Part shown: in pieces, positions 27,912-38,230 of the stretch
How the letters are laid out: each line of letters opens with the position of its first letter
Numbering within the stretch: position 1 is the stretch's first letter
DNA from: an uncultured beta proteobacterium
GTDB lineage: Bacteria; Pseudomonadota; Gammaproteobacteria; Burkholderiales; Rhodocyclaceae
Direction of reading: 5' to 3'
Assembly: GCA_903908065.1 (NCBI GenBank)
Contig: CAIVQO010000023.1
Location: 1 to 38,230 of the forward strand
Length of the DNA stretch: 38,230 nucleotides
The notes under the pieces: generated by a model
Seen by the model: the letters and a program-made list of their open reading frames with translations, nothing else
Told to the model about the DNA's origin: nothing
Database searches by the model: none
Program-made: the position numbers and the translations under genes

Positions 27912-28420
27912 ATGGGCTTGAAATGTTCGAAGGGTTCGCGGCAATCGAGGCAGCGGTGCAGGGACTTGCAGGCGGTCGAGCCGAAGGCGGAAAGTTGTTC
28001 GGTGCGCGGGCTGTCGCAGCGCGGGCAGGGCACGGCGGCGGTACGGCGGCCGACCAGGCGGATAGGCTGCGCACCTTCGGGCAGCGCCGGGCCGGGCGGC
28101 GCAATCCCGTACTCGCGCAGCTTGCGTTTGCCCTCCTCGCTGATCCAGTCGCTGCTCCAGGCCGGCGCACGACGCGTGAGCACGCGCGCCGGGCCGAGAC
28201 CTGCCGCGACCACCGCGTCAAGCACGTTCTGTTCGATCAGCTCGGTGGCCGGGCAGCCGCTGTAGGTCGGCGTCAGCACGACTTCCAGGCCGTCATCGCG
28301 TTCATTGACCTCGCGCACCAGGCCGAGATCGACCACCGACAGGGCCGGGACCTCTGGGTCGAGCACCTCGGCCAGCGCGGTCCAGGCGGCATCGACGCGT
28401 GAGGCGGTGGCCACGCTCAC
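27908..28420 (-). CDS. paaD: Phenylacetate degradation protein PaaD (DUF59/MIP18-type, Fe-S assembly)
   Basis: A 170-aa accessory protein needed for a functional epoxidase, probably for cofactor maturation. The N-terminal DUF59 domain shows LDPEVPALSVVDLGLVREV and TPTYSGCPA with the conserved Cys; the C-terminal zinc ribbon has CPRC and CLDC, ending in EPFEHFKPI, which is typical of PaaD. It overlaps paaC upstream and paaE downstream by 4 nt each. Confidence 0.95.
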   Translation of the reverse strand: MSVATASRVDAAWTALAEVLDPEVPALSVVDLGLVREVNERDDGLEVVLTPTYSGCPATELIEQNVLDAVVAAGLGPARVLTRRAPAWSSDWISEEGKRKLREYGIAPPGPALPEGAQPIRLVGRRTAAVPCPRCDSPRTEQLSAFGSTACKSLHRCLDCREPFEHFKPI

Positions 28421-29190
28421 CAGGCGCCTCCGGGGTAGGCGCGTTGCAGGTACTGCATCTCGGCCAGCAGATAACCCATGTGCTCGGAATGGCGACCGAC
28501 CTTGCCCGTGCTGCGAAACTTCGTCGACTCGGGCAGCGCCAGGCCGGCTTCACCCAGCACCTCTCCCATCTCGGCCAGCCAAGGCTCGCGGAGGCTGGAC
28601 CAGGCCGGGCCGAGGCCGCTGGCCTCGGCGGCCGCATCCACCGTATCGTCCTCGAACAGCTCCGGCAGGTAGGGCGCGATCTGCGCCAGCGCCGCCTCGC
28701 AGCGGCGACGCGATTCTTCGGTGCCATCACCCAGGCGCACCGCCCAGTCGGCGGCATGCTGCTGGTGGTAACGCGCTTCCTTGAGAGCCTTGCCGGCGAT
28801 CGCGGCAAGCTCGGCATCGCGGGAATCGCGCAGACGTTCCCAGATCAGTTTTAGCCAGGTCGAAAGCACCAGATTGCGCAGGATGGTGAAGGCGAAGTCG
28901 CCGCGCGGCAGTTCGGCCAGCGTCGGGTTGCGATAGGCGCCCTCGTCACGCAGGAAGGCGAGCTGGTCTTCGTCGAAGCCCTTGCCACTCTTCTGTCCCG
29001 CCAGTGTCAGCAACGCACGTGATTGGCCAATCAAGTCCAGCGCCATGTTGGACAGCGCGATGTCTTCCTCGAGGATGGGCCCATGGCCGCACCACTCGCC
29101 AAGACGTTGGCCCGAGATCAGGCAAGTGTCGCCCAGGCGCAGCAGGTAGTCGAGTTCGGGCGTCGCCGGAATTTGTATCGATGCTTGCAT
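28417..29190 (-). CDS. paaC: Phenylacetyl-CoA epoxidase structural subunit PaaC
   Basis: A 257-aa ferritin-like helical protein, the non-catalytic partner of PaaA in the 1,2-epoxidase complex. Recognisable parts are YLLRLGDTCLISGQRLGEWC, then LTLAGQKSGKGFDEDQLAF and EARYHQQHAADWAVRLGDGT. It lies 9 nt after paaB and overlaps paaD by 4 nt. Length agrees with characterised PaaC proteins. Confidence 0.95.
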   Translation of the reverse strand: MQASIQIPATPELDYLLRLGDTCLISGQRLGEWCGHGPILEEDIALSNMALDLIGQSRALLTLAGQKSGKGFDEDQLAFLRDEGAYRNPTLAELPRGDFAFTILRNLVLSTWLKLIWERLRDSRDAELAAIAGKALKEARYHQQHAADWAVRLGDGTEESRRRCEAALAQIAPYLPELFEDDTVDAAAEASGLGPAWSSLREPWLAEMGEVLGEAGLALPESTKFRSTGKVGRHSEHMGYLLAEMQYLQRAYPGGAW

Positions 29191-29199
29191 GGCGCGGCC

Positions 29200-29490
29200 T
29201 TACATCTGATCCACAGAATCCGGCAGCTTGTAGAAGGTCGGGTGGCGATACACCTTGTCCTCCGCCGGATCGAACAGCATGTCCTTGTCGCCCGGATCGC
29301 TGGCGACGATCTGGTCCGAGCGCACCACCCAGACGCTGCTGCCTTCCTGACGCCGGGTGTAGACGTCGCGCGCCATCTGCACCGCCATCCTGGCGTCGGC
29401 GGCATGCAGGCTGCCGCAATGCTTGTGGTCGAGGCCAGCCTTGGTGCGGACAAAGACCTCCCACAGCGGCCATTCGTTTTCGGTGCTCAT
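29200..29490 (-). CDS. paaB: Phenylacetyl-CoA epoxidase subunit PaaB
   Basis: A 96-aa small subunit that bridges PaaAC heterodimers. [20 protein letters not shown] and [15 protein letters not shown] are characteristic. The ATG at 29490 has AAGGAG upstream and overlaps the paaA stop by 4 nt; the longer frame to 29601 is an extension into paaA. Confidence 0.94.
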
Positions 29491-30491
29491 GCTGCTTTCT
29501 CCTTTCTCGCTTGCTTGCGCGAATGCGCCAGCGCCGCCTCGCGCACCCATTCGCCCTCTTCCCAGGCGGCGACACGCATGGCAAGCCGTTCGCGGTTGCA
29601 CGGCCCCTCGCCGCCCACCACTCGCCAGAACTCGCTCCAGTCAATGGTGCCGAAATCCCAGTGCTGGGTTGCCTCGTTCCAGCGCAGGTCCGGATCGGGC
29701 AGGCTGACGCCGAGCACCTGCGCCTGCTGCACGGTGGCGTCGACGAACTTCTGGCGCAGCGTATCGTTGGAAACGCGCTTGATGCCCCAGCGCATGCCCT
29801 GCGCCGAATTCGGGCTCTGGTCATCGGGTGGGCCGAACATCATCAGGCAGGGCCACCACCAGCGATTCACCGCGTCCTGCACCATGGCCTTCTGCGCTTC
29901 GGTGCCGTTTTGCATCATCGCCAGCAGGCTGTCGTAACCCTGGCGCTGGTGGAAGCTTTCCTCGCGGCAGATGCGGATCATGGCGCGGGCGTAGGGCGCG
30001 TAGGAGCAGCGGCAGATCGGCACCTGGTTCATGATCGCCGCGCCGTCGACCAGCCAGCCGATGGTGCCGACATCGGCCCAGGTCAGCGTCGGGTAGTTGA
30101 AGATCGAGCTGTACTTGGCCTTGCCCGAGTGCAGGGAATCCAGCATCTGGTCGCGGCTCTGGCCCAGGGTCTCGGCGGCGGCGTAGAGGTAGAGGCCGTG
30201 GCCGCCCTCGTCTTGTACCTTGGCCAGCAGGATCGCCTTGCGTTTGAGCGTCGGCGCGCGGGTGATCCAGTTGCCCTCGGGCAGCATGCCAACGATCTCG
30301 GAGTGCGCGTGCTGGCTGATCTGGCGCAGCAGGGTCTTGCGGTAATTGTCCGGCATCCAGTCCTTGGCTTCGATGAAATCACCGGCGTCGATCCGGTTGT
30401 CGAAGCGCTGCTGGAGTGCGGCCTCTTCGGCCGTGCGCAGGGCGGGCTGACCGCCCTCCTCGCGCATGGTGTCCATGGCTTGGGTGTACAT
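29487..30491 (-). CDS. paaA: Phenylacetyl-CoA 1,2-epoxidase catalytic subunit PaaA
   Basis: A 334-aa ferritin-like diiron monooxygenase subunit that epoxidises the ring of phenylacetyl-CoA. The iron-ligand motifs DEGGHG (94-99) and REESFH (176-181) and the preceding [16 protein letters not shown] are present. The ATG at 30491 with AAGGA 7 nt upstream gives the family's usual start (MYTQAMDTM); the frame is open to 30578. It is the first gene of paaABCDE. No paaK, paaG, paaZ or paaJ is in the window, so ring opening and the lower pathway must be encoded elsewhere, or shared in part with the beta-oxidation operon. Confidence 0.96.
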
Positions 30492-30551
30492 GCTGCGTCC
30501 TTCGGCTCTGCTGTTGCGGGGCGCCGGCGCGCCCTGCCGGGATGCGCCAAC

Positions 30552-30606
30552 GTGATACATTTTGATAATTTTTAACAAATATAGTGTATCACTTACACCG
30601 TGTCAA
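30552..30606 (-). promoter_or_regulatory. paaABCDE promoter with embedded inverted-repeat operator
   Basis: On the minus strand a perfect -35 TTGACA (30606-30601) and -10 TATATT (30583-30578) are separated by exactly 17 nt. GTGATACA and TGTATCAC (30552-30559 and 30585-30592) are exact reverse complements: one lies between -35 and -10, the other about +12 to +19 downstream. The core is TGATAC-N27-GTATCA, similar in layout to the TGATTC-N27-GAATCA arrangement I recall for E. coli PaaX. A repressor responding to phenylacetyl-CoA is the natural reading. Confidence 0.7.
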
Positions 30607-30726
30607 TTGAAATCTAAAGCACTGACAAGCGGCCGCCCCTAACCGTCGTGCCGACATTCCCGCCGCACTAAGGATTTGCCGTGATCGTCCGTAAATACAG
30701 GTGTGATCCGACAGGAGCCCGCCATC

Positions 30727-30864
30727 ATGATGTTCCGAGTCAACTACAAGGGAATGCAGAAGTTCATCGGCCGACTGGAACTGGCCTATGCCTACCTGGC
30801 CGAAAACTGGGGCTCGGCATCCAAGGCTTATGAGATCGGGGTCAAACTGGAACGCGTACTCTGA
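30727..30864 (+). CDS. Small hypothetical protein (45 aa)
   Basis: ATGATG at 30727 opens a 45-codon frame ending at TGA 30862-30864. AGGAG (30713-30717) lies 9 nt upstream, which is good translational support. The peptide (starting MMFRVNYKGMQKFIGRLELA and ending VKLERVL) is basic/amphipathic, mostly helical, with several aromatic residues and no membrane segment. I do not recognise it. It is alone on the plus strand between the paa promoter and the convergent hydrolase gene. Confidence 0.5.
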   Translation: MMFRVNYKGMQKFIGRLELAYAYLAENWGSASKAYEIGVKLERVL

Positions 30865-30963
30865 CCGGATGAGGCCGCCAGCCGGGATGCGCGCGATTGG
30901 CTCGTCTCCAGGAGCATCGGCAGAGCGGAGACCACTTGCCCACGACGCGCCCACGACGGCGGA

Positions 30964-31857
30964 TTACAGCGACAGCTCCATGCCCTCGCGCGACAGGAGG
31001 TAAGTCGTTTCGCCACCGGTCGCCGTGACACCATTCGCCGCCAGCGCGGCCGCGAATGCGGCCTCGAGCGCATCGTCAGTTCGCTCCGGTTCGTGATGGG
31101 TGCAGACCAGTGTCTTCACCCCCAGACGACGCCCCCAGCCAATGCTGCCTTCGAGCGTGCCGTGCCCCCAGCCGAGCTTGTTCTTGTATTCGGCCGTAGT
31201 GTAGGAACTGTCGGCGATCAGGATGTCGAGGTCGGCCAGCGCCGCGTCGAGATGGGCCTGCTGCTGGTCGATGATTTGCTGAAACTCGCCGTAGCCCTCG
31301 TCTTCCGGGGCATAAATGTTGAGCCAGGGCTCGTGGTCGCCGGTAAAAAATACCGACTTCCCGTTGCAGTCGATTCGATAACCGAAATTGACCACCGGGT
31401 GATTCAACAACAGCGGAGTTACCTTGGCATCGCCTATCGTCACCGGCTCGCCGACCGTCAGGTTGCGGTAGTCGATATTGGCCTTCATCTCGGCTTCGCG
31501 CACCGGAAAAAAGCTGTATTGGAGCTGGACCTCCATGACCTGCTCGATTCCACGTTGCGACACGATGTCGAACGCACCGTGGATGCGGACCTTGTTGCCG
31601 GGGATGTACAGCGGGGTGAAGAAGGGCAGTCCCTGAATGTGGTCCCAGTGGCTGTGGGTAACGAATATGTTGGCCGGGGCCGGGGGCGACTTCAATAGTT
31701 GCTGGGCCAGAGGAAAAATGCCGGTGCCTGCATCGAGGACGATCAGGTGTCCGTCGTCGCTCCTAACTTCAATGCAGGTGGTATTGCCACCGTAGCGCAA
31801 GGTCGGTTGGCCAGGCGACGCGATCGATCCGCGCACGCCCCAGAAGCGGACTTTCAT
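30964..31857 (-). CDS. Metallo-beta-lactamase-fold hydrolase
   Basis: A 297-aa metallo-hydrolase beginning MKVRFWGVRGSIASPG, a start shared by a group of MBL-fold phosphodiesterase-like proteins. The metal motif is THSHWDHIQGLPF (HxHxDH); later ligands are in LLLNHPVVNFGY, FFTGDHEPW and CTHHEPERTDDA. Substrate is unknown; cyclic-nucleotide or phosphodiester cleavage is typical for relatives. The ATG at 31857 fits the family start; the frame is open to 31911 and would overlap the upstream HDOD gene. It is last in the leftward array and follows the HDOD gene by 10 nt. Confidence 0.85.
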   Translation of the reverse strand: MKVRFWGVRGSIASPGQPTLRYGGNTTCIEVRSDDGHLIVLDAGTGIFPLAQQLLKSPPAPANIFVTHSHWDHIQGLPFFTPLYIPGNKVRIHGAFDIVSQRGIEQVMEVQLQYSFFPVREAEMKANIDYRNLTVGEPVTIGDAKVTPLLLNHPVVNFGYRIDCNGKSVFFTGDHEPWLNIYAPEDEGYGEFQQIIDQQQAHLDAALADLDILIADSSYTTAEYKNKLGWGHGTLEGSIGWGRRLGVKTLVCTHHEPERTDDALEAAFAAALAANGVTATGGETTYLLSREGMELSL

Positions 31858-31867
31858 GCCCGCGAAC

Positions 31868-32731
31868 TCATTCGTGCGCCACCTGGGCGAAAACCATCGC
31901 CTCGTCGACAATCTTGTCCAGCGCGCCCATACGATCGATTACGGCATCGAGATCATCGCCAAAACGATGCGGTGCAATGGCCGCCTCGCCGGTGCGCCAT
32001 GGGTTTCCGCTATCACCCACTCCTCGCAGACGCACGATCTGGTCGGCGGTACGCAGGCAGTCTAGGAGTGCCGATTGAACCTGCGGATTGTGGTGGTCAC
32101 GAATGCAGTCCACCAATTCGACCGGGAAGGTCCAGCGATGGGCGAGCATGGCACCCACCACGCCGTGATCGATGCCTATGATCCGGCTTTCAGCGTCGTG
32201 CAAGGGAATGCCTTGCTCGGTCGAGTACCGCATTGCTTCGCTGAATTCCGCCGGCAGGAACTGGGCCAGGACGATCTTGCCAAAATCGTGCAGCAGCCCG
32301 GCCACGTAACAATCGCCAGGCTCGAGTTCATCGCGCGCGAAAAGCTGCCCAAGGTGACGGGCGACGCCCGCCACTACCAGCGAATGCAGCAGGTAGCGCT
32401 GGACGTCGAATCCGGCCGTCGTGGTGCGAGGCAGGATGCCGACGGCAGCGAATCCCAGCGCCAGGTTCTTGACCGTATTGATGCCGAGATAGACCACGGA
32501 CTGGCCAACCGAGGTGATCTTGTTGGGCAGGTTGTAGTACGCGGAATTGATGACCTTGAAAATCTTCATGGTCATCACCGGGTCCTTCTCGATCACGCCG
32601 ACGATTTCCTTCGGCGGGCAATTGATATTGCGCGTCAACTCCAGCACGCGCTGCACGCTGCGCGGAAAGGCCGGCATGCGTTCGACCGCATGGCCCAGTT
32701 TGCGCTCCAGTTCGGGAGTCAGTTCGCTCAA
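31868..32731 (-). CDS. HDOD-domain protein
   Basis: A 287-aa HDOD protein (residues about 15-215; MPAFPRSVQRVLELTRNI, VIEKDPVMTMKIFKVINSAYYNLPNKITS, VVYLGINTVKNLAL). GLLHDFGK keeps an HD-like pair. HDOD proteins act as non-enzymatic adaptors in signalling. No ATG gives a full domain: the first usable start is TTG at 32731, since the frame runs back to the upstream gene's stop at 32774 without an ATG or GTG; an internal ATG (residue 19) would trim the domain edge. It follows the TauD-like gene by 42 nt. Confidence 0.82.
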   Translation of the reverse strand: MSELTPELERKLGHAVERMPAFPRSVQRVLELTRNINCPPKEIVGVIEKDPVMTMKIFKVINSAYYNLPNKITSVGQSVVYLGINTVKNLALGFAAVGILPRTTTAGFDVQRYLLHSLVVAGVARHLGQLFARDELEPGDCYVAGLLHDFGKIVLAQFLPAEFSEAMRYSTEQGIPLHDAESRIIGIDHGVVGAMLAHRWTFPVELVDCIRDHHNPQVQSALLDCLRTADQIVRLRGVGDSGNPWRTGEAAIAPHRFGDDLDAVIDRMGALDKIVDEAMVFAQVAHE

Positions 32732-32773
32732 TTCGTCGACGGCCTCGGAAATGCCGTCGATTATACGGACCGC

Positions 32774-33676
32774 TCAGGCGGCGGCCGTCACCGTAGTTTC
32801 CGCAACCCGCTCGTGGTAACGCGCCCGATACAAAAGGCGGCGGCGCTCCGGCGTCTCGGTGAACCCCGACCGGTCGTGCAGCACGTTGTTGCAGACCAGT
32901 CCCATGCCGGGCTCCAGTCGGCCATGCAGGGTCCACGCCGTGGGCGCCGCCAGGATGCGGGCAAGGGCGGCCACTGCTGCGCGGGTAGCCTCATCGTTGC
33001 GCCATTCGATGCTGACCGTGCGCGCCGTGTAGCGCATGTGCAGGAAGCCCGCTTGATCCACCGAAAATACGGGGCCTGGCTGGGCCGCACGGGCGACGCC
33101 AGTGTCGTCCATGCGCGCCGGGATCACCATGGCATCGTCGCGCGACAGCGCCCGAATGTGGTCGGGGTTTTCGTCGCGCAGCAGGATGTAGGCGAGTTCA
33201 TGGTCCAGCAACTGGTTTTCGCCGCCGCCGGCCGCGCTCTGTACGCAGTGCAGGATCAGGCCGCGCACCGTGCGTTCCGGCCTGTTGTAGTAGCCGTCGG
33301 TATGCCAGCGGATCGGTTTGTCGGTATAGGGAATGAATTCGCGCCGCTCGCTGCGTTCCTCGGCGCCGCGTACCGAGATCGGCGAAATCGCGTCGTCGTC
33401 TGTCAGCCAGTGGCTGTCGAGCCGATTGAGCCCAAGCTGACGACCGAGCTGACGGGGGATCTCCTTGTCCGCATCGCCCACGGTGTTGCTGGTGTAGATC
33501 GCCATGTTCGCCGTGGCGCAGCGCTCCAGCAGCGTGGCACGCTCGGCCGGGGCAAGGCGACGCGGATCGTCAAGCGCGACGAGGATATCCTCGACGCGGC
33601 GCGGCGCAGTGTCGAGCTTGCGTTCCCGCCAGGCGGCATAGGCGGAGCGATCGGCCAGATCGAAGGGATTACTCAC
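32774..33676 (-). CDS. TauD/TfdA-family Fe(II)/2-oxoglutarate-dependent dioxygenase-like protein
   Basis: A 300-aa jelly-roll oxygenase. Iron ligands are His125 and Asp127 (IRWHTDGYYN) and His267 (NNVLHDRSGF), with Arg278-280 placed to bind 2-oxoglutarate. The start is GTG at 33676, overlapping the preceding gene's end by 8 nt. TauD relatives release sulfite from sulfonates such as taurine or hydroxylate other small molecules. Its place in an array with TusA- and DsrC-type genes, opposite dsrAB, suggests an organosulfur substrate, but that is inference. Confidence 0.83.
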   Translation of the reverse strand: MSNPFDLADRSAYAAWRERKLDTAPRRVEDILVALDDPRRLAPAERATLLERCATANMAIYTSNTVGDADKEIPRQLGRQLGLNRLDSHWLTDDDAISPISVRGAEERSERREFIPYTDKPIRWHTDGYYNRPERTVRGLILHCVQSAAGGGENQLLDHELAYILLRDENPDHIRALSRDDAMVIPARMDDTGVARAAQPGPVFSVDQAGFLHMRYTARTVSIEWRNDEATRAAVAALARILAAPTAWTLHGRLEPGMGLVCNNVLHDRSGFTETPERRRLLYRARYHERVAETTVTAAA

Positions 33677-34274
33677 CGGAAACGCCGTCCCGTGGGCGCC
33701 GACTTTTCACAGTCTCGGGGTGGAACAATCCACCCAGGGTCTTCTGCAGGATCTTGATCGCCTCGGGCGATTCGATTTCCATGACCTGGTCCACGGCCCA
33801 CAAGCGATCCTTCTCCGGCAGGGTGTCCTTGATGCAGGCGGCGAAGCAACGGCGAAAGCCGAAATCCGGCCCTGCCGCATCGAAGCCGAACTCGGCATAC
33901 TCGTCGCTGCGCCGGTTGTAGAGTTCGAGGAAGTTGCGACCGGCGGCGCCGGGTGCGAGATCGGGCAACAGAGCCTCACGCGCCTCTTCGACCATCCCCG
34001 CCAGGCGCTTCACCAACGCCACCGTGAATTCGGCGCGCGATTCCGGCTCCAGGTCGTCGTGGGCTATCCGATCGGCCGAAAGCGCAAGAAAGCAGAGGTA
34101 TTCGCAAACGAAATCGAACCAGCCGCGCCCGACCTCGATGTCGTAGTCGGCCTGGCGCATGCGGGTAATCGACTCCTGCCCCAGCTTCCAGGCCAGCATG
34201 GCAATCACGCTGGCGTGCTCGGCCATGGCGCGCGGCCGGCCGGAGTGGAAGCTGTTTCGTAGACGGAGAGCCAT
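33669..34274 (-). CDS. Unknown helical protein in the sulfur-gene array
   Basis: A 201-aa protein, largely alpha-helical (FDFVCEYLCFLALSADRIA, EFTVALVKRLAGMVEEAREA, ending IKILQKTLGGLFHPETVKSR). No signal peptide, membrane segment or known motif is visible and I do not recognise the family. I chose the ATG at 34274 because the frame above it runs into G-rich repeat sequence. It overlaps the TauD-like gene by 8 nt, so the two are probably made together, and it lies 117 nt after the DsrC-like gene across a hairpin/G-quadruplex region. Confidence 0.7.
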   Translation of the reverse strand: MALRLRNSFHSGRPRAMAEHASVIAMLAWKLGQESITRMRQADYDIEVGRGWFDFVCEYLCFLALSADRIAHDDLEPESRAEFTVALVKRLAGMVEEAREALLPDLAPGAAGRNFLELYNRRSDEYAEFGFDAAGPDFGFRRCFAACIKDTLPEKDRLWAVDQVMEIESPEAIKILQKTLGGLFHPETVKSRRPRDGVSGE

Positions 34275-34311
34275 CGGTTTCCTTGTTCGAGCACAGCGAG
34301 CTAACTGGTCA

Positions 34312-34343
34312 CCCCCGCCCGGGCGGGGGCCGGGGGGTGGGGG
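34312..34343 (+). repeat. GC palindrome with G-quadruplex motif
   Basis: CCCCCGCCCGGGCGGGGG (34312-34329) is a perfect 18-bp palindrome. Its right half runs into further G-tracts, so 34321-34343 reads G3-N1-G5-N2-G6-N1-G5, a canonical four-tract G-quadruplex motif on the plus strand (C-rich in the mRNA of the leftward array). It resembles the dispersed C/G-run intergenic elements common in betaproteobacteria; only one copy is in the window. Confidence 0.6.
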
Positions 34344-34359
34344 CAATCTTTGCGCCCTA

Positions 34360-34403
34360 GGCGGTTACTAACTCCGCCCAAGAGGGCGGAGTTAGTAACC
34401 GCC
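34360..34403 (-). terminator. Long perfect hairpin at the 3' end of the DsrC-like gene
   Basis: GGCGGTTACTAACTCCGCCC (34360-34379) and its exact reverse complement (34384-34403) form a 20-bp stem with a 4-nt loop. The stop codon (34392-34394) and last codons of the DsrC-like gene lie inside the stem. There is no U-tract, so it may be a processing or attenuation element between the TusA/DsrC part and the rest of the array. Confidence 0.55.
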
Positions 34404-34730
34404 TTTACCGAATGGCTTAGTCAGGCCGGCGATCTTGACGCCCTGTTTGGCGGCGCCGCCATCGGGAAAGAGTTCGAACATGCGGGCGCTGGAAACGTCG
34501 GCAATGACCTCTTCCTCTTCCAGCATCTTCATCATGTTGCGCAGGTTGGGCGTGTGGCCGTCTTCCTGGAACTTGCGGCGCAGGAAATCGATGATGGCGC
34601 GATGGTCGTCGGTCAGTGCAATACCCTGCTCGGCAGCAATGGCCTCCACGGCCTCGGCACTGAAATCCGCTTCCAGCAGGTAACCGTCGTCGTCGGTCTC
34701 TTTTTCCACTCCATTGATCGTGTAGGGCAT
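34392..34730 (-). CDS. DsrC/TusE-family protein lacking both C-terminal cysteines
   Basis: A 112-aa member of the DsrC/TusE sulfur-relay family: DDDGYLLEADFSAEAVEAIA, LTDDHRAIIDFLRRKFQEDG, and a C-terminal arm VKIAGLTKPFGKGGY. In DsrC the arm reads CKIAGLPKPTGCV; aligned here, the two redox/persulfide cysteines are Val98 and Lys109, and no other cysteine is present. The protein therefore cannot carry sulfur as DsrC does and fits the regulatory Cys-less branch sometimes named RspA. Start ATG 34730 shares one base with the TusA fusion stop, with GAGGAGA upstream. Confidence 0.88.
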   Translation of the reverse strand: MPYTINGVEKETDDDGYLLEADFSAEAVEAIAAEQGIALTDDHRAIIDFLRRKFQEDGHTPNLRNMMKMLEEEEVIADVSSARMFELFPDGGAAKQGVKIAGLTKPFGKGGY

Positions 34731-35212
34731 CAGGCTCTCCTCAGAAAAAATTCGTGAATTCCGCGTCCCGTCTCGTGACTGAACAAGAGTTCGGCAGCGC
34801 CGGCCTTGGCCCATGACGAGATATCGTCGGCCGAACCGGGGCAGTCGCTGACCAGTTGCAGCACTTCGCCGGCCTTCATGCCGTCGAGCAGTTTTTTGGC
34901 TTGCAGGATGGGGCCGGGACAGGAAACGCCGCGCATGTCGAGCGTGACGTGCGGAATCGGCGTCGCCGCCGCACTGCCGGCGCGCTGGATCAGGTAGGCA
35001 GTCTTGCCGTCGGCCTGCTTCTTCGATTCGAGCACCTGGTTGCCGGTGAATTTCGCCCAGGCAAACAGATCGTCGGCGGTGCCGGGGCAATCCGATATCA
35101 GCCGCAGCGTCTGGCCCGGTTGCAGGTCGTCGACGATCTTCTTGGCGCCGAGCAGCGGGGCCGGGCAGGGCAATCCGCTGGTGTCCAGCGAAACGGTGGC
35201 TTGGTCAGTCAT
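34730..35212 (-). CDS. Tandem TusA-TusA fusion sulfurtransferase
   Basis: A 160-aa protein made of two TusA (SirA-like) domains: residues about 7-78 with GLPCPAPLLGAKK (Cys16) and about 88-158 with GVSCPGPILQAKK (Cys98). Each also has an SDCPGxADD element (Cys42 and Cys124). TusA proteins carry a persulfide on the CPxP cysteine and hand sulfur to DsrE/DsrC-type partners. Single-domain TusA of about 80 aa is the norm, so this is a duplication-fusion. AAGGGAGA precedes the ATG at 35212. It lies 24 nt after the Cas6-like gene and overlaps the DsrC-like start. Confidence 0.9.
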   Translation of the reverse strand: MTDQATVSLDTSGLPCPAPLLGAKKIVDDLQPGQTLRLISDCPGTADDLFAWAKFTGNQVLESKKQADGKTAYLIQRAGSAAATPIPHVTLDMRGVSCPGPILQAKKLLDGMKAGEVLQLVSDCPGSADDISSWAKAGAAELLFSHETGRGIHEFFLRRA

Positions 35213-35236
35213 TAGTGTTGTCTCCCTTTGAACATG

Positions 35237-35863
35237 CTATTCGCCGACGGCGGCGATGGATTTGTGCGGCACAAACAGGCCGCAGCCCAGCAGATGATGG
35301 CGGCCCAGGCCGGCTTCCTGGATGGCGACGGAGTCTGCGCGCTTGAGGCCGTGGAGCATCAGGGCAAACCCATGGATTTCGGTGCCGGCGCAATGCAGTT
35401 GACGCGCACGGCCAGTGACGGGTTGCGCGCCGATCCCGCGCTCGGCAAGTTCGGCACGACAGGCGGCGAGGAACGCTATTTCGTCTGCCGTTTCATAGCT
35501 CACAAAATGCGAGTACACGACTTCGGTGACCGGCAGCAGGGGGCGCCGGCTGGCACGACCGATGCCCAATGCCTGGCCGGCCACGTCGAGGCGAAGCCCG
35601 CTCAAGGAGTCGGCGCTGGCGCTAAGGTGGTTGGGCACCCGCAGCGTCAGGCGACTGCGGCGTCCTACAAAATGCCCGCCGTCGCCGCGTCCCAATCCAG
35701 AGAGGGGCAGGATGCCGGCGCGCGGCTCTTCGTCCAGCCAGGGCAAGGCGGCGCGCAGCGCTGCCGAGAGGGCTTCGACATGATCGGTGGCCAGCGTTCC
35801 GCCATCCAGTTCGAAGACGACGTCGACCATCTTCGCCGAAGCCTCTTCCGGCCAGGTCGTCAC
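35237..35863 (-). CDS. Cas6/Cmx6-like RAMP protein in the sulfur array (orphan)
   Basis: A 208-aa protein resembling the type I-MYXAN Cas6/Cmx6 family: MVDVVFELDGGTLATDHVEAL at the N-terminus, a VSYETADEIAFLAACRAELA helix, and the C-terminal Gly-rich loop IQEAGLGRHHLLGCGLFVPHK (184-201), the hallmark of the RAMP fold in Cas6. Cas6 cuts CRISPR RNA, but no CRISPR repeats or other cas genes are in the window. The start is GTG at 35863 with GGAGG upstream, overlapping the preceding stop (GTGA); MVDVVF at residue 12 is an alternative. It is in a tight row with TusA- and DsrC-type genes. Confidence 0.75.
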   Translation of the reverse strand: MTTWPEEASAKMVDVVFELDGGTLATDHVEALSAALRAALPWLDEEPRAGILPLSGLGRGDGGHFVGRRSRLTLRVPNHLSASADSLSGLRLDVAGQALGIGRASRRPLLPVTEVVYSHFVSYETADEIAFLAACRAELAERGIGAQPVTGRARQLHCAGTEIHGFALMLHGLKRADSVAIQEAGLGRHHLLGCGLFVPHKSIAAVGE

Positions 35864-36096
35864 GCCTCACCTCCCGGGTTGGCTATTCCCGGCTGAGCAG
35901 CCGCCCAGTCGCAGAGTGCCTTGCCCCACTGGGCGGCGGTGACCGGGTCGACATCGAAGATGGTGAAGCGGCTGCCTTCGCGGATGCGCGTGCGCAGCAA
36001 GGGCATGCCGCCGGCTTCGAAGACGAACTCTTGCAACTCGATCGCCTGGTTGCCGATCGGCACACGAAACTTGGTGATGGTCTTGACGTTATCCAC
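35860..36096 (-). CDS. Small unknown protein, first gene of the leftward sulfur array
   Basis: A 78-aa protein starting at GTG 36096 (GAGGA about 7 nt upstream), sequence beginning MDNVKTITKFRVPIGNQAIE and rich in beta-strand character, with REGSRFTIFDVDPVTAAQWG near the C-terminus. No signal peptide, cysteine motif or known domain is seen except one Cys in KALCDWAA. The frame above the GTG is open to 36144 but lacks a comparable ribosome site. Its stop overlaps the Cas6-like start by 4 nt, so the two are translationally coupled. Confidence 0.65.
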   Translation of the reverse strand: MDNVKTITKFRVPIGNQAIELQEFVFEAGGMPLLRTRIREGSRFTIFDVDPVTAAQWGKALCDWAAAQPGIANPGGEA

Positions 36097-36277
36097 GGTT
36101 TTCCTCGGGTCGGGACTATGGCATCCGTCGAAGTGGGGAGCCATTCCCGCATGGGAGTGGAAGCATATAACCCTTTCGGGTAGGTACGTTTACCTGCCGG
36201 GAGTATGGTTTGTGCACCGCACCTAACCCTATGATTCGACAATCGCGTACTACCCCGACAACGAGGAGAGACTGACC
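36097..36277. promoter_or_regulatory. Divergent control region between dsrAB and the leftward sulfur array
   Basis: This 181-nt region holds two stem-loops: CCATTCCC/GGGAGTGG (36141-36148 with 36153-36160, one G-T pair) and GGTAGGTA/TACCTGCC (36179-36186 with 36191-36198, one G-T pair). A TATGAT -10-like hexamer for dsrA is at 36230-36235 and an A/T-rich TTATAT for the leftward genes at 36170-36165 (minus strand); convincing -35 elements are not seen. GAGGAGA precedes the dsrA ATG. Confidence 0.45.
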
Positions 36278-37576
36278 ATGGCCAAGCCCATGCACCCCAC
36301 CCCGAACCTGGATCAACTGGAAAGCGGGCCCTGGCCCAGCTTCGTCACCGGCCTCAAGCGTCTGGCCAAGGAAAAGGACTACGTCGTCGATGTGCTCGGC
36401 CACCTCGAGCATTCCTACCAGACCCGCAAGGGCTACTGGAAGGGCGGCACGGTCGGCGTGCGCGGCTACGGCGGCGGCGTCATCCCGCGCTTCACCGAGA
36501 TCAAGGATGCCAACGGCCAGGCCGTCTTCAAGGACGCCACCGAATTCCACACCCTGCGCATCATGCCGCCCCCCGGCATGCACTATGACACCGCGACCCT
36601 GCGTCAGCTCTGCGACATCTGGGACAAGTACGGTTCCGGCCTGATCGCGCTGCACGGCCAGTCGGGCGACATCATGATGCAGGGCTGCACCACGGAAAAC
36701 GTGCAGAAGGCCTGGGACGAGATCAACGAAATGGGCTTCGACCTCGGCGGTGCCGGCCCGGCCGTGCGCACCTCGATGTCCTGCGTCGGCGCGGCGCGCT
36801 GCGAGCAGTCGTGCTTCGACGAAGCCAAGGCACACAAGGCCGTCATCAACAGCTTCCTCGACGACATCCATCGCCCGGCCCTGCCCTACAAGTTCAAGTT
36901 CAAGTTCTCCGGCTGCGGCAACGACTGCATGAACGCCATCCAGCGTTCCGACATGGCCGTGATCGGCACCTGGCGCGACAACATGCGCACCGACGACGAA
37001 CTGGGCAAGAAGTGGTTCGCCAAGCACGGCATGAACGAGCTGGTGAATGACGTCGTCGCCCGCTGCCCGACCAAGGCCCTGCAGATCAAGGACGCCGGCG
37101 CCGTGCGCAAGGACGCCCACATCTCCGCCGTGGCCCTGGACGGCAAGCAGTGCCTGGAAATCGACAACAAGGACTGCGTGCGCTGCATGCACTGCATCAA
37201 CGTCATGACCGGCGCCCTGGCCCCGGGTAAGGACAAGGGCGCCTCGATCCTGGTCGGCGGCAAGAGCCACCTCAAGATCGGCGGCCTGATGGGCACCCTG
37301 GTCGTGCCCTTCATGAAGCTGGAAACCGAGGAAGACCGCGAGAAGCTGGTCGAACTGGCCCAGTCCATCATCGACTTCTTCGCCGAGAACGCCCTGGAGC
37401 ACGAGCGCACCGGCGAGATGATCGAGCGCATCGGCCTGGTCAACTTCCTCGAGGGCATCGGCCTCGACGTCGACCCGCACATGATCAACACGCCGCGCAC
37501 CAATCCCTACGTCCGTACCGACGGCTGGGATGAGGAAGTGGCGAAGATCGAAGCCAAGAAGAAGGCAGCCGCCTAA
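36278..37576 (+). CDS. dsrA: Dissimilatory sulfite reductase subunit alpha
   Basis: A 432-aa DsrA. Siroheme/[4Fe-4S] ligands are Cys169 and Cys175 (SCVGAARC) and Cys213, Cys217 (SGCGNDC); a ferredoxin-type insertion supplies Cys263 (RCPTKAL), Cys300, Cys303 and Cys306 (DCVRCMHC). With DsrB it forms the alpha2beta2 sulfite reductase. In a betaproteobacterium with TusA/DsrC-type neighbours and aerobic pathways, the reverse (sulfur-oxidising) direction is likely, but the window ends before dsrD or dsrEFH could decide. Codons almost all end in C or G, more strictly than in neighbours, which hints at high expression. Confidence 0.97.
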   Translation: MAKPMHPTPNLDQLESGPWPSFVTGLKRLAKEKDYVVDVLGHLEHSYQTRKGYWKGGTVGVRGYGGGVIPRFTEIKDANGQAVFKDATEFHTLRIMPPPGMHYDTATLRQLCDIWDKYGSGLIALHGQSGDIMMQGCTTENVQKAWDEINEMGFDLGGAGPAVRTSMSCVGAARCEQSCFDEAKAHKAVINSFLDDIHRPALPYKFKFKFSGCGNDCMNAIQRSDMAVIGTWRDNMRTDDELGKKWFAKHGMNELVNDVVARCPTKALQIKDAGAVRKDAHISAVALDGKQCLEIDNKDCVRCMHCINVMTGALAPGKDKGASILVGGKSHLKIGGLMGTLVVPFMKLETEEDREKLVELAQSIIDFFAENALEHERTGEMIERIGLVNFLEGIGLDVDPHMINTPRTNPYVRTDGWDEEVAKIEAKKKAAA

Positions 37577-37587
37577 GCACCGCCGCA

Positions 37588-37616
37588 GGCTCCCCCCGGC
37601 CCGGCCGGCGGGAGCC
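37588..37616 (+). repeat. Strong hairpin in the dsrA-dsrB intercistronic gap
   Basis: GGCTCCC (37588-37594) pairs with GGGAGCC (37610-37616); after one C/C mismatch the stem continues with CCGG/CCGG (37596-37599 with 37605-37608). It begins 12 nt after the dsrA stop inside a 90-nt gap and has no U-tract. It may protect upstream mRNA or adjust subunit output. Confidence 0.55.
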
Positions 37617-37666
37617 CAAACGCGTTCAAAACCCTACTAGTTATATCGACTTTTCCGGAGACAACT

Positions 37667-38230
37667 ATGGCTGAAGCTCAAGCTCTGCGCAAGGCAGTCG
37701 AGTGCGGCGTTCCCGACAACGACAAGTACATGCACCCCACGCTGCTGAAGAATCGCGGCAACTGGAAATACCACGATCGTCCCCGTCCCGGCGTGCTGCA
37801 CCACGTTGCCCATTCCGGCGACCAGGTCTGGTCGGTGCGCGCCGGCACCCAGCGTCAGATGGACACCCACACCATCCGCAAGCTGTGCGACATCGCCGAG
37901 CAGTTCGCCGAAGGCCATGTGCGTTTCACGATCCGCTCCAACATCGAATACATCGTCGCCGACCAGAACAAGGTCGATCCGCTGATCGCCAAGCTGGAAG
38001 CCGAAGGCTTCCCGGTCGGCGGCACCGGCAACTCGGTGACCATGGTGGCCCACACCCAGGGCTGGCTGCACTGCGACATCCCCGGCACCGACGCCTCGGG
38101 CGTGGTCAAGTCGATGATGGACCAGCTCTACGACGAGTTCAAGAACGAGCAGATGCCCAACCGCGTGCATCTGTCGACCTCCTGCTGCGAAATCAACTGC
38201 GGCGGCCAGGCCGACCTCGCCGTGATCGTC
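37667..38230 (+). CDS. dsrB: Dissimilatory sulfite reductase subunit beta (partial, 3' end beyond window)
   Basis: The first 188 codons of DsrB, open to the right edge. ATG 37667 follows CCGGAGACAACT. The start MAEAQALRKAVECGVPDNDK and DRPRPGVLHHVAHSG, then GDQVWSVRAGTQRQM and VRFTIRSNIEYIVAD, match DsrB; TSCCEINCGGQ (171-181) holds the first cofactor-binding cysteines. It follows dsrA by 90 nt. The remaining cluster and ferredoxin cysteines lie outside the window. Confidence 0.95.
   Translation, partial: MAEAQALRKAVECGVPDNDKYMHPTLLKNRGNWKYHDRPRPGVLHHVAHSGDQVWSVRAGTQRQMDTHTIRKLCDIAEQFAEGHVRFTIRSNIEYIVADQNKVDPLIAKLEAEGFPVGGTGNSVTMVAHTQGWLHCDIPGTDASGVVKSMMDQLYDEFKNEQMPNRVHLSTSCCEINCGGQADLAVIV

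Follow-up and report, generated by a model that had tools for sequence, protein, structure and literature searches.

Cas6 proteins of the Cmx6 family are known from type I-MYXAN (I-B) systems of clustered regularly interspaced short palindromic repeats (CRISPR), and a Cas6 is also a subunit of the RNA-guided transposition complex in the type I-B Cascade of CRISPR-associated transposons (CAST; PDB 8fcj, 8fcu). Here we describe a member of this family encoded in a stretch of 38,230 nucleotides (nt) from an uncultured member of the Rhodocyclaceae (contig CAIVQO010000023.1, positions 1 to 38,230; hereafter the window), which we call Cas6o, a name coined in this analysis for a Cas6/Cmx6-family protein without CRISPR context. 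Cas6o resembles the type I-MYXAN proteins in family, double RAMP fold and a glycine-rich loop with GCG, but differs from them in its dsr context, with no cas genes in the loci inspected, in its position on the other side of the family tree, and in its neutral charge, a loop 6-13 residues shorter and the loss of several basic residues, E128, G151, H200 and K201 being conserved instead. No partners such as those of the CAST protein were found for it. Its gene belongs to an operon divergent from the adjacent dsrA of the reverse dsr cluster, and tracks dsrA through genomes. The Cas6o clade almost certainly works outside CRISPR, and a role there in reverse-Dsr sulfur oxidation is well supported.

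To our knowledge, the usual dsr gene lists contain no cas6-like gene. No such gene of the dsr cluster is mentioned in passages of PMC5944118, and where passages of this paper, PMC5728499 and PMC10952691 refer to cas6, they concern ordinary CRISPR systems or their absence; PMC11406059 does not mention CRISPR. We found no dedicated study of a dsr-linked Cas6 among the matches listed in the open-access literature on Cas6 with sulfur genes, Cmx6 and lone Cas6. PMC10989796 treats the dissimilatory sulfur genes of mangrove metagenome-assembled genomes, which include one Burkholderiales genome with dsr genes; it names cas6 once, in the Figure 3B legend on the organisation of these genes, and its section 10 does not comment on it; judging from the legend, this is very likely the same gene as Cas6o. 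The family is already known by name, and the NCBI model TIGR02807, which Cas6o matches over cut-off, gives it a CRISPR-protein name that is misleading for the dsr-linked (dsr-type) clade.

A Cas6-family protein that accompanies dsrA

The resemblance of Cas6o to Cas6 is far beyond chance. It matches TIGR02807 (cas6_cmx6) at 135.7 bits, against a curated cut-off of 98.85 (E 1.8e-39), and PF09559 (Cas6) at 167 bits, against a curated cut-off of 26.7 (E 6.2e-49), and sequence comparison with PDB recovers the CAST Cas6 chain 8fcj_B at E 4.2e-9. Two RAMP (ferredoxin-like) domains are found in its AlphaFold model, supported by PDB structure comparison, and the C-terminal glycine-rich loop, including GCG, is present in the alignment with relatives. 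The first-pass annotation, made from the sequence alone, had proposed a Cas6/Cmx6-like RAMP protein; both curated cut-offs bear out this membership, and the predicted structure, named beforehand as the test that could refute the proposal, has the double RAMP fold.

We surveyed 300 genomes of the window's order, and identified PF09559 in 58, one copy each. dsrA, counted at E < 1e-80, is present in 64 of the 300, and all 58 carriers are among these; the 236 genomes lacking dsrA all lack Cas6o as well (Fisher p 1.4e-55, kinship ignored). Six dsrA genomes have no Cas6o: in two, the contig ends just upstream of dsrA (275 and 2 bases), and four keep DUF6967, the upstream partner of Cas6o, and parts of the operon, indicating that Cas6o can be lost. 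Across the phylum, the family was found in five of 398 sampled genomes, all five of the window's order. As a separate observation, eight carriers have second dsrA copies (L194-L201), which, unlike the first copies, adjoin neither DUF6967 nor Cas6o.

Cas6o shows no association with Cas1, which occurs in 17 of the 58 carriers and 96 of the 242 other genomes (p 0.17), and DevR/Cas7, the I-MYXAN partner, is in none of the 300 genomes of the order. The window's own genome (99.6% complete) yielded no Cas1, no Cas6f and no Cas3 over cut-off, with three weak Cas3 matches below it. A search for CRISPR-like repeat arrays, which covered the window only, found none there, in agreement with the first-pass reading of the window as free of repeats.

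The neighbourhood is also conserved. In all 57 loci fetched from the other carriers, dsrA is encoded on the strand opposite to Cas6o at a distance of 0.4 to 4.9 kb, and a DsrC-like gene follows downstream on the Cas6o strand, again in 57/57; tblastn identified DUF6967 in 49 of these loci, an unnamed conserved protein in 54, a TauD-like protein in 45 and TusA-TusA in 19 (same strand). Searching GTDB genomes for the pattern GCG[IVL][FL][VI]PHK gave 583 matches, and 578 of these were confirmed as relatives. The best 80, which include Sulfuritalea, Thiobacillus, Sulfurisoma, Rhodoferax, Polaromonas and other genera, were retained, and dsrA adjoins Cas6o in 76 of them. The two sets share genomes (e.g. 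L129 and G248), and are therefore not to be summed. Of the four exceptions, locus L154 ends with its contig 389 bases upstream, and L170, L180 (both Marithrix) and L174 (Parabeggiatoa), from the gammaproteobacterial family Thiotrichaceae, have Cas6o with non-dsr neighbours, dsrA being present elsewhere in all three genomes. The proposed link to sulfur metabolism, and not to CRISPR, is thus upheld in both sets, with dsr genes, not cas operons, beside orthologues in the loci inspected. The first-pass label of an orphan gene is right as to the lack of CRISPR context, but is too modest for a gene conserved within a dsr-linked operon; in the 57 loci, the suggested co-occurrence with tusA, dsrC-like and dsr genes holds throughout for dsrA and the DsrC-like gene, but not for TusA-TusA, found in just a third of them.

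Divergence from CRISPR-type relatives

We aligned the 57 dsr-type proteins with nine CRISPR-type sequences, comprising eight plasmid relatives and the CAST chain. The genes cas8, cas7/DevR and cas5, the context of a type I-MYXAN Cas6, adjoin seven of the eight plasmid relatives, with cas3 in six of those seven, and are not found beside Cas6o; the relative on a Gloeobacter plasmid has mostly hypothetical neighbours and no such cas genes. On that plasmid (Gloeobacter morelensis, L094:7805-13237), the Cas6/Cmx6-family gene is accompanied, among hypotheticals, by a PAPS-reductase-family gene, an arrangement that we take to be reminiscent of type IV CRISPR with CysH. On a plasmid of [Synechococcus] sp. 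NIES-970 (L102:5995-6656), the cas6-family match is in two hypothetical-annotated pieces beside cas3 and DevR, and is possibly a broken gene.

In an unrooted tree of 51 proteins, the CRISPR-type and dsr-type sequences are split at 100/99. As the tree is unrooted it does not tell which type came first; from the wider Cas6 superfamily we infer that the CRISPR role preceded the sulfur one. The Thiotrichaceae Cas6o group at 100/100 with L049 and L056, from one family of the window's order, and the DsrA of these two are closest to Thiotrichaceae DsrA (75-78%), as would be expected if Cas6o and dsr had been transferred together. Two further features were noted in the Thiotrichaceae: in Candidatus Marithrix BB16 (G670, the genome of L170; C1:59827-62058), an intein-like in-frame insertion of ~1 kb splits dsrA within a 762-aa open frame, and at L174:16350-18587 (-) a DnaB-like frame appears, from its translation read by eye, to contain an intein-like insertion.

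The two types differ at specific residues. E128 is invariant in the dsr-type proteins (57/57), against P in 8/9 of the CRISPR-type, and G151 (57/57), H200 (51/57) and K201 (56/57) are conserved in the dsr-type but not in the CRISPR-type; for H200 and K201 only these 57 count, since the 81/81 of the GTDB set came from a pattern ending in PHK. Conversely, R119, present in all nine CRISPR-type sequences, is lost in the dsr-type (H in 40/57), as are K189 (8/9), P104 (9/9) and Y85 (9/9), and the segment between residues 147 and 165 comprises 19-20 residues in 56/57 dsr-type proteins against 25-32 in the nine. The dsr-type proteins keep R75 (57/57), the glycine-rich loop, R190 (R 52, H 5 of 57) and C194. 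Their core net charge has a median of 0 for the 57 and -0.5 for the 80, against +6 for the nine (lowest +2); as a composition control, five readable Cas6f matches from the window's order have +4 to +8. Cas6o therefore has neither the basic charge nor the residues and longer loop of the CRISPR-type, features which, as far as nine sequences can suggest, may define the role in processing CRISPR RNA (crRNA).

His28, at best a guess at a catalytic residue made by position only, is H in 40, Y in 15 and N in 2 of the 57; this variation decides nothing, since some active Cas6 enzymes have no general acid and base, according to a passage of PMC3727216. Cys150 was also considered as a sulfur carrier. 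It is present in 49/57 of the PF09559 set and 41/81 of the GTDB set, and replaced by Thr in the window protein; its absence here and in 40/81 of the second set means that it is no general sulfur carrier.

The operon and its intergenic region

Features of the window around Cas6o
Feature	Position	Strand	Description
TauD/TfdA-like dioxygenase	32774..33676	-	family scans; same strand in 45/57 relatives
Conserved unnamed protein	33669..34274	-	retained in dsr-linked operon
Perfect inverted repeat	34359..34404	.	arms 21 nt, 34359-34379 / 34384-34404, at DsrC-like stop
DsrC-family protein	34392..34730	-	TIGR03342 over cut-off; ends GKGGY, no cysteine near end
TusA-TusA fusion	34730..35212	-	family scans; 24 nt after Cas6o
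Cas6o	35237..35863	-	208 aa, GTG start; two RAMP domains and C-terminal glycine-rich loop
DUF6967 (PF22295)	35860..36144	-	94 aa, ATG at 36144; overlaps Cas6o start
dsrA / DUF6967 divergent promoter region	36145..36277	.	strongly conserved block and inverted repeats (AACCCTTTCGGGTAGGT...)
dsrA	36278..37576	+	over TIGR02064 cut-off; NIR_SIR domains in Pfam
dsrB	37667..38230	+	truncated by window end; named from position after dsrA

The end of DUF6967 overlaps the start of Cas6o by four bases (GTGA), and in three related loci (L065, L069 and L167) the two share one open frame. The coupling recognised at first pass is real, although the upstream protein has 94 rather than 78 residues. The DUF6967 model has four strands and a helix (bbbb-a), as in PUR and PC4-like domains, and a PUR/PC4-like fold is predicted; its top structural neighbours are PUR repeat and PC4-like domains that bind single-stranded DNA (ssDNA) or RNA. 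The scores are weak, and no sequence relation to these or other proteins was found against the Pfam and PDB lists, although a missing entry there does not disprove one.

Downstream, the spacing from the Cas6o stop to the TusA-TusA ATG, and the DsrC-family gene that follows with dsrA and dsrB opposite, are as first annotated, the TIGR03342 scan having been run without the first two residues of the DsrC-like protein. The DsrC-like ATG overlaps the TusA-TusA stop (TGATG), and in 4/6 loci inspected a double rhodanese (three confirmed by Pfam) replaces TusA-TusA. The unnamed protein has no Pfam match, and a longer open reading frame at this position has no NCBIfam match either. Functional DsrC has a cysteine near the C-terminus, which the window protein does not have, and cysteine-free DsrC homologues are known as RspA. 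The relatives end in GKGGY in 68/74 cases and GKAGY in 4/74, and 37 of these 72 contain no cysteine anywhere. DsrC of Allochromatium vinosum is reported, in a passage of PMC5944118, to bind DNA upstream of the dsr cluster, making a regulatory role of the Cas6o operon plausible rather than demonstrated.

Between dsrA and DUF6967, the conserved block contains palindromes of the type TACCC-N4-GGGTA, both in the window and in relatives, which are perhaps NarL/LuxR-type sites. Its 18-mer TAACCCTTTCGGGTAGGT has a single mismatch-free occurrence in the genome. Folding energies of the divergent leader in 14 sequences lie below those of column shuffles on both strands (0/100 as low on either), a result that the palindromes can explain. 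A conserved leader RNA structure was rejected, there being no supporting compensatory change among the variable pairs printed and several broken pairs, and the repeats are read as probable DNA inverted repeats rather than a supported RNA fold; an Rfam scan of 28000-38230 gave nothing near gathering score.

The first-pass annotation had noted a 20-bp hairpin downstream as a possible target RNA. The hairpin exists, with perfect arms one nucleotide longer, but at the DsrC-like stop of 29 sequences (our own and 28 loci, L103-L130, of which L126 is cut off there) a perfect stem of at least 20 bp is found in three only (our own, L106 and L107), with 12 bp in L109 and shorter stems or none elsewhere. 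It is absent from the closest relative, L103, and we rejected this lineage-limited element as a conserved Cas6o target. The hairpin is an inverted copy of the last DsrC-like codons placed right after the stop, which recurs in L106, L107, L109, L111 and L123, and is perhaps a terminator.

Possible roles of Cas6o

We propose that a Cas6-family protein departed from CRISPR and now assists reverse-Dsr sulfur oxidation as an accessory factor. Together, Cas6o (RAMP) and DUF6967 (PUR/PC4-like) would make up a small module in which both folds are nucleic-acid-binding-like. The module may bind or process either RNA (or ssDNA) from the dsr region or some other cellular RNA, and would thereby let Dsr expression track the sulfur supply, which the operon's DsrC-like protein and its TusA-TusA (or rhodanese) would report. 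An RNA- or ssDNA-directed regulator is favoured because the two folds are coupled, sometimes fused, and divergent to dsrA; we infer that the module binds nucleic acid, acts on an RNA target and is linked to regulation, and consider the odds of an RNA-regulator mechanism to be about even. The fuller reading, in which a domesticated Cas6 and a PUR-like protein constitute a sulfur-responsive RNA-processing or RNA-binding regulator in reverse-Dsr across the Betaproteobacteria, passed with dsr between them and giant sulfur bacteria, is tentative, with a probability of roughly 0.35. Several points weigh against a regulator of this kind. That Cas6o has lost both the basic charge and CRISPR-type residues argues against unchanged crRNA-style cleavage, and neither the hairpin nor a leader structure is supported as an RNA target. 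The strongest is the lost charge, which would suit a protein scaffold. It is conceivable, if on the unlikely side, that Cas6o is no longer RNA-directed and that its double RAMP fold is a scaffold for the DsrC-like protein and TusA-TusA (or rhodanese), or helps DsrAB: the sulfur-carrier neighbours, the neutral charge, the lost basic residues and loop part, and the four residues conserved in the dsr-type alone are all consistent with this, but the retained glycine-rich loop with R190 and R75 is not, Cys150 is no general sulfur carrier, and the closest partner, DUF6967, is itself predicted to resemble ssDNA- and RNA-binding folds.

The regulator may also be set against a role in RNA thiolation or other tRNA modification, in which the TusA-like and TusE/DsrC-like proteins would be partners of Cas6o. 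Both families stand here beside an RNA-enzyme fold, and in E. coli TusA and TusE take part in tRNA 2-thiolation. We consider this improbable, as general tRNA modification would not need the confinement of the gene to dsrA genomes seen in our sample, TusA-TusA is exchanged for rhodanese or missing from the same strand in many loci, and the DsrC-like protein has no cysteine near its end. That Cas6o is an ordinary crRNA endonuclease serving an array elsewhere in the genome is suggested by family and fold only, and is very improbable indeed given a genome without detected Cas1, Cas6f or over-cut-off Cas3, 300 genomes of the order without detected DevR/Cas7 of the cognate system, and no association with Cas1, arrays having been looked for in the window only.

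The dsr-type Cas6 genes should not be counted as evidence of CRISPR-Cas. Their distribution suggests that a part of an immune system was recruited into sulfur metabolism and kept by many related sulfur bacteria. This would be a case in which energy metabolism exapted a CRISPR nuclease; it would bring two uncharacterised proteins into the reverse-Dsr pathway of numerous sulfur oxidisers in the environment, with Cas6o a testable candidate for the control of dsr genes.
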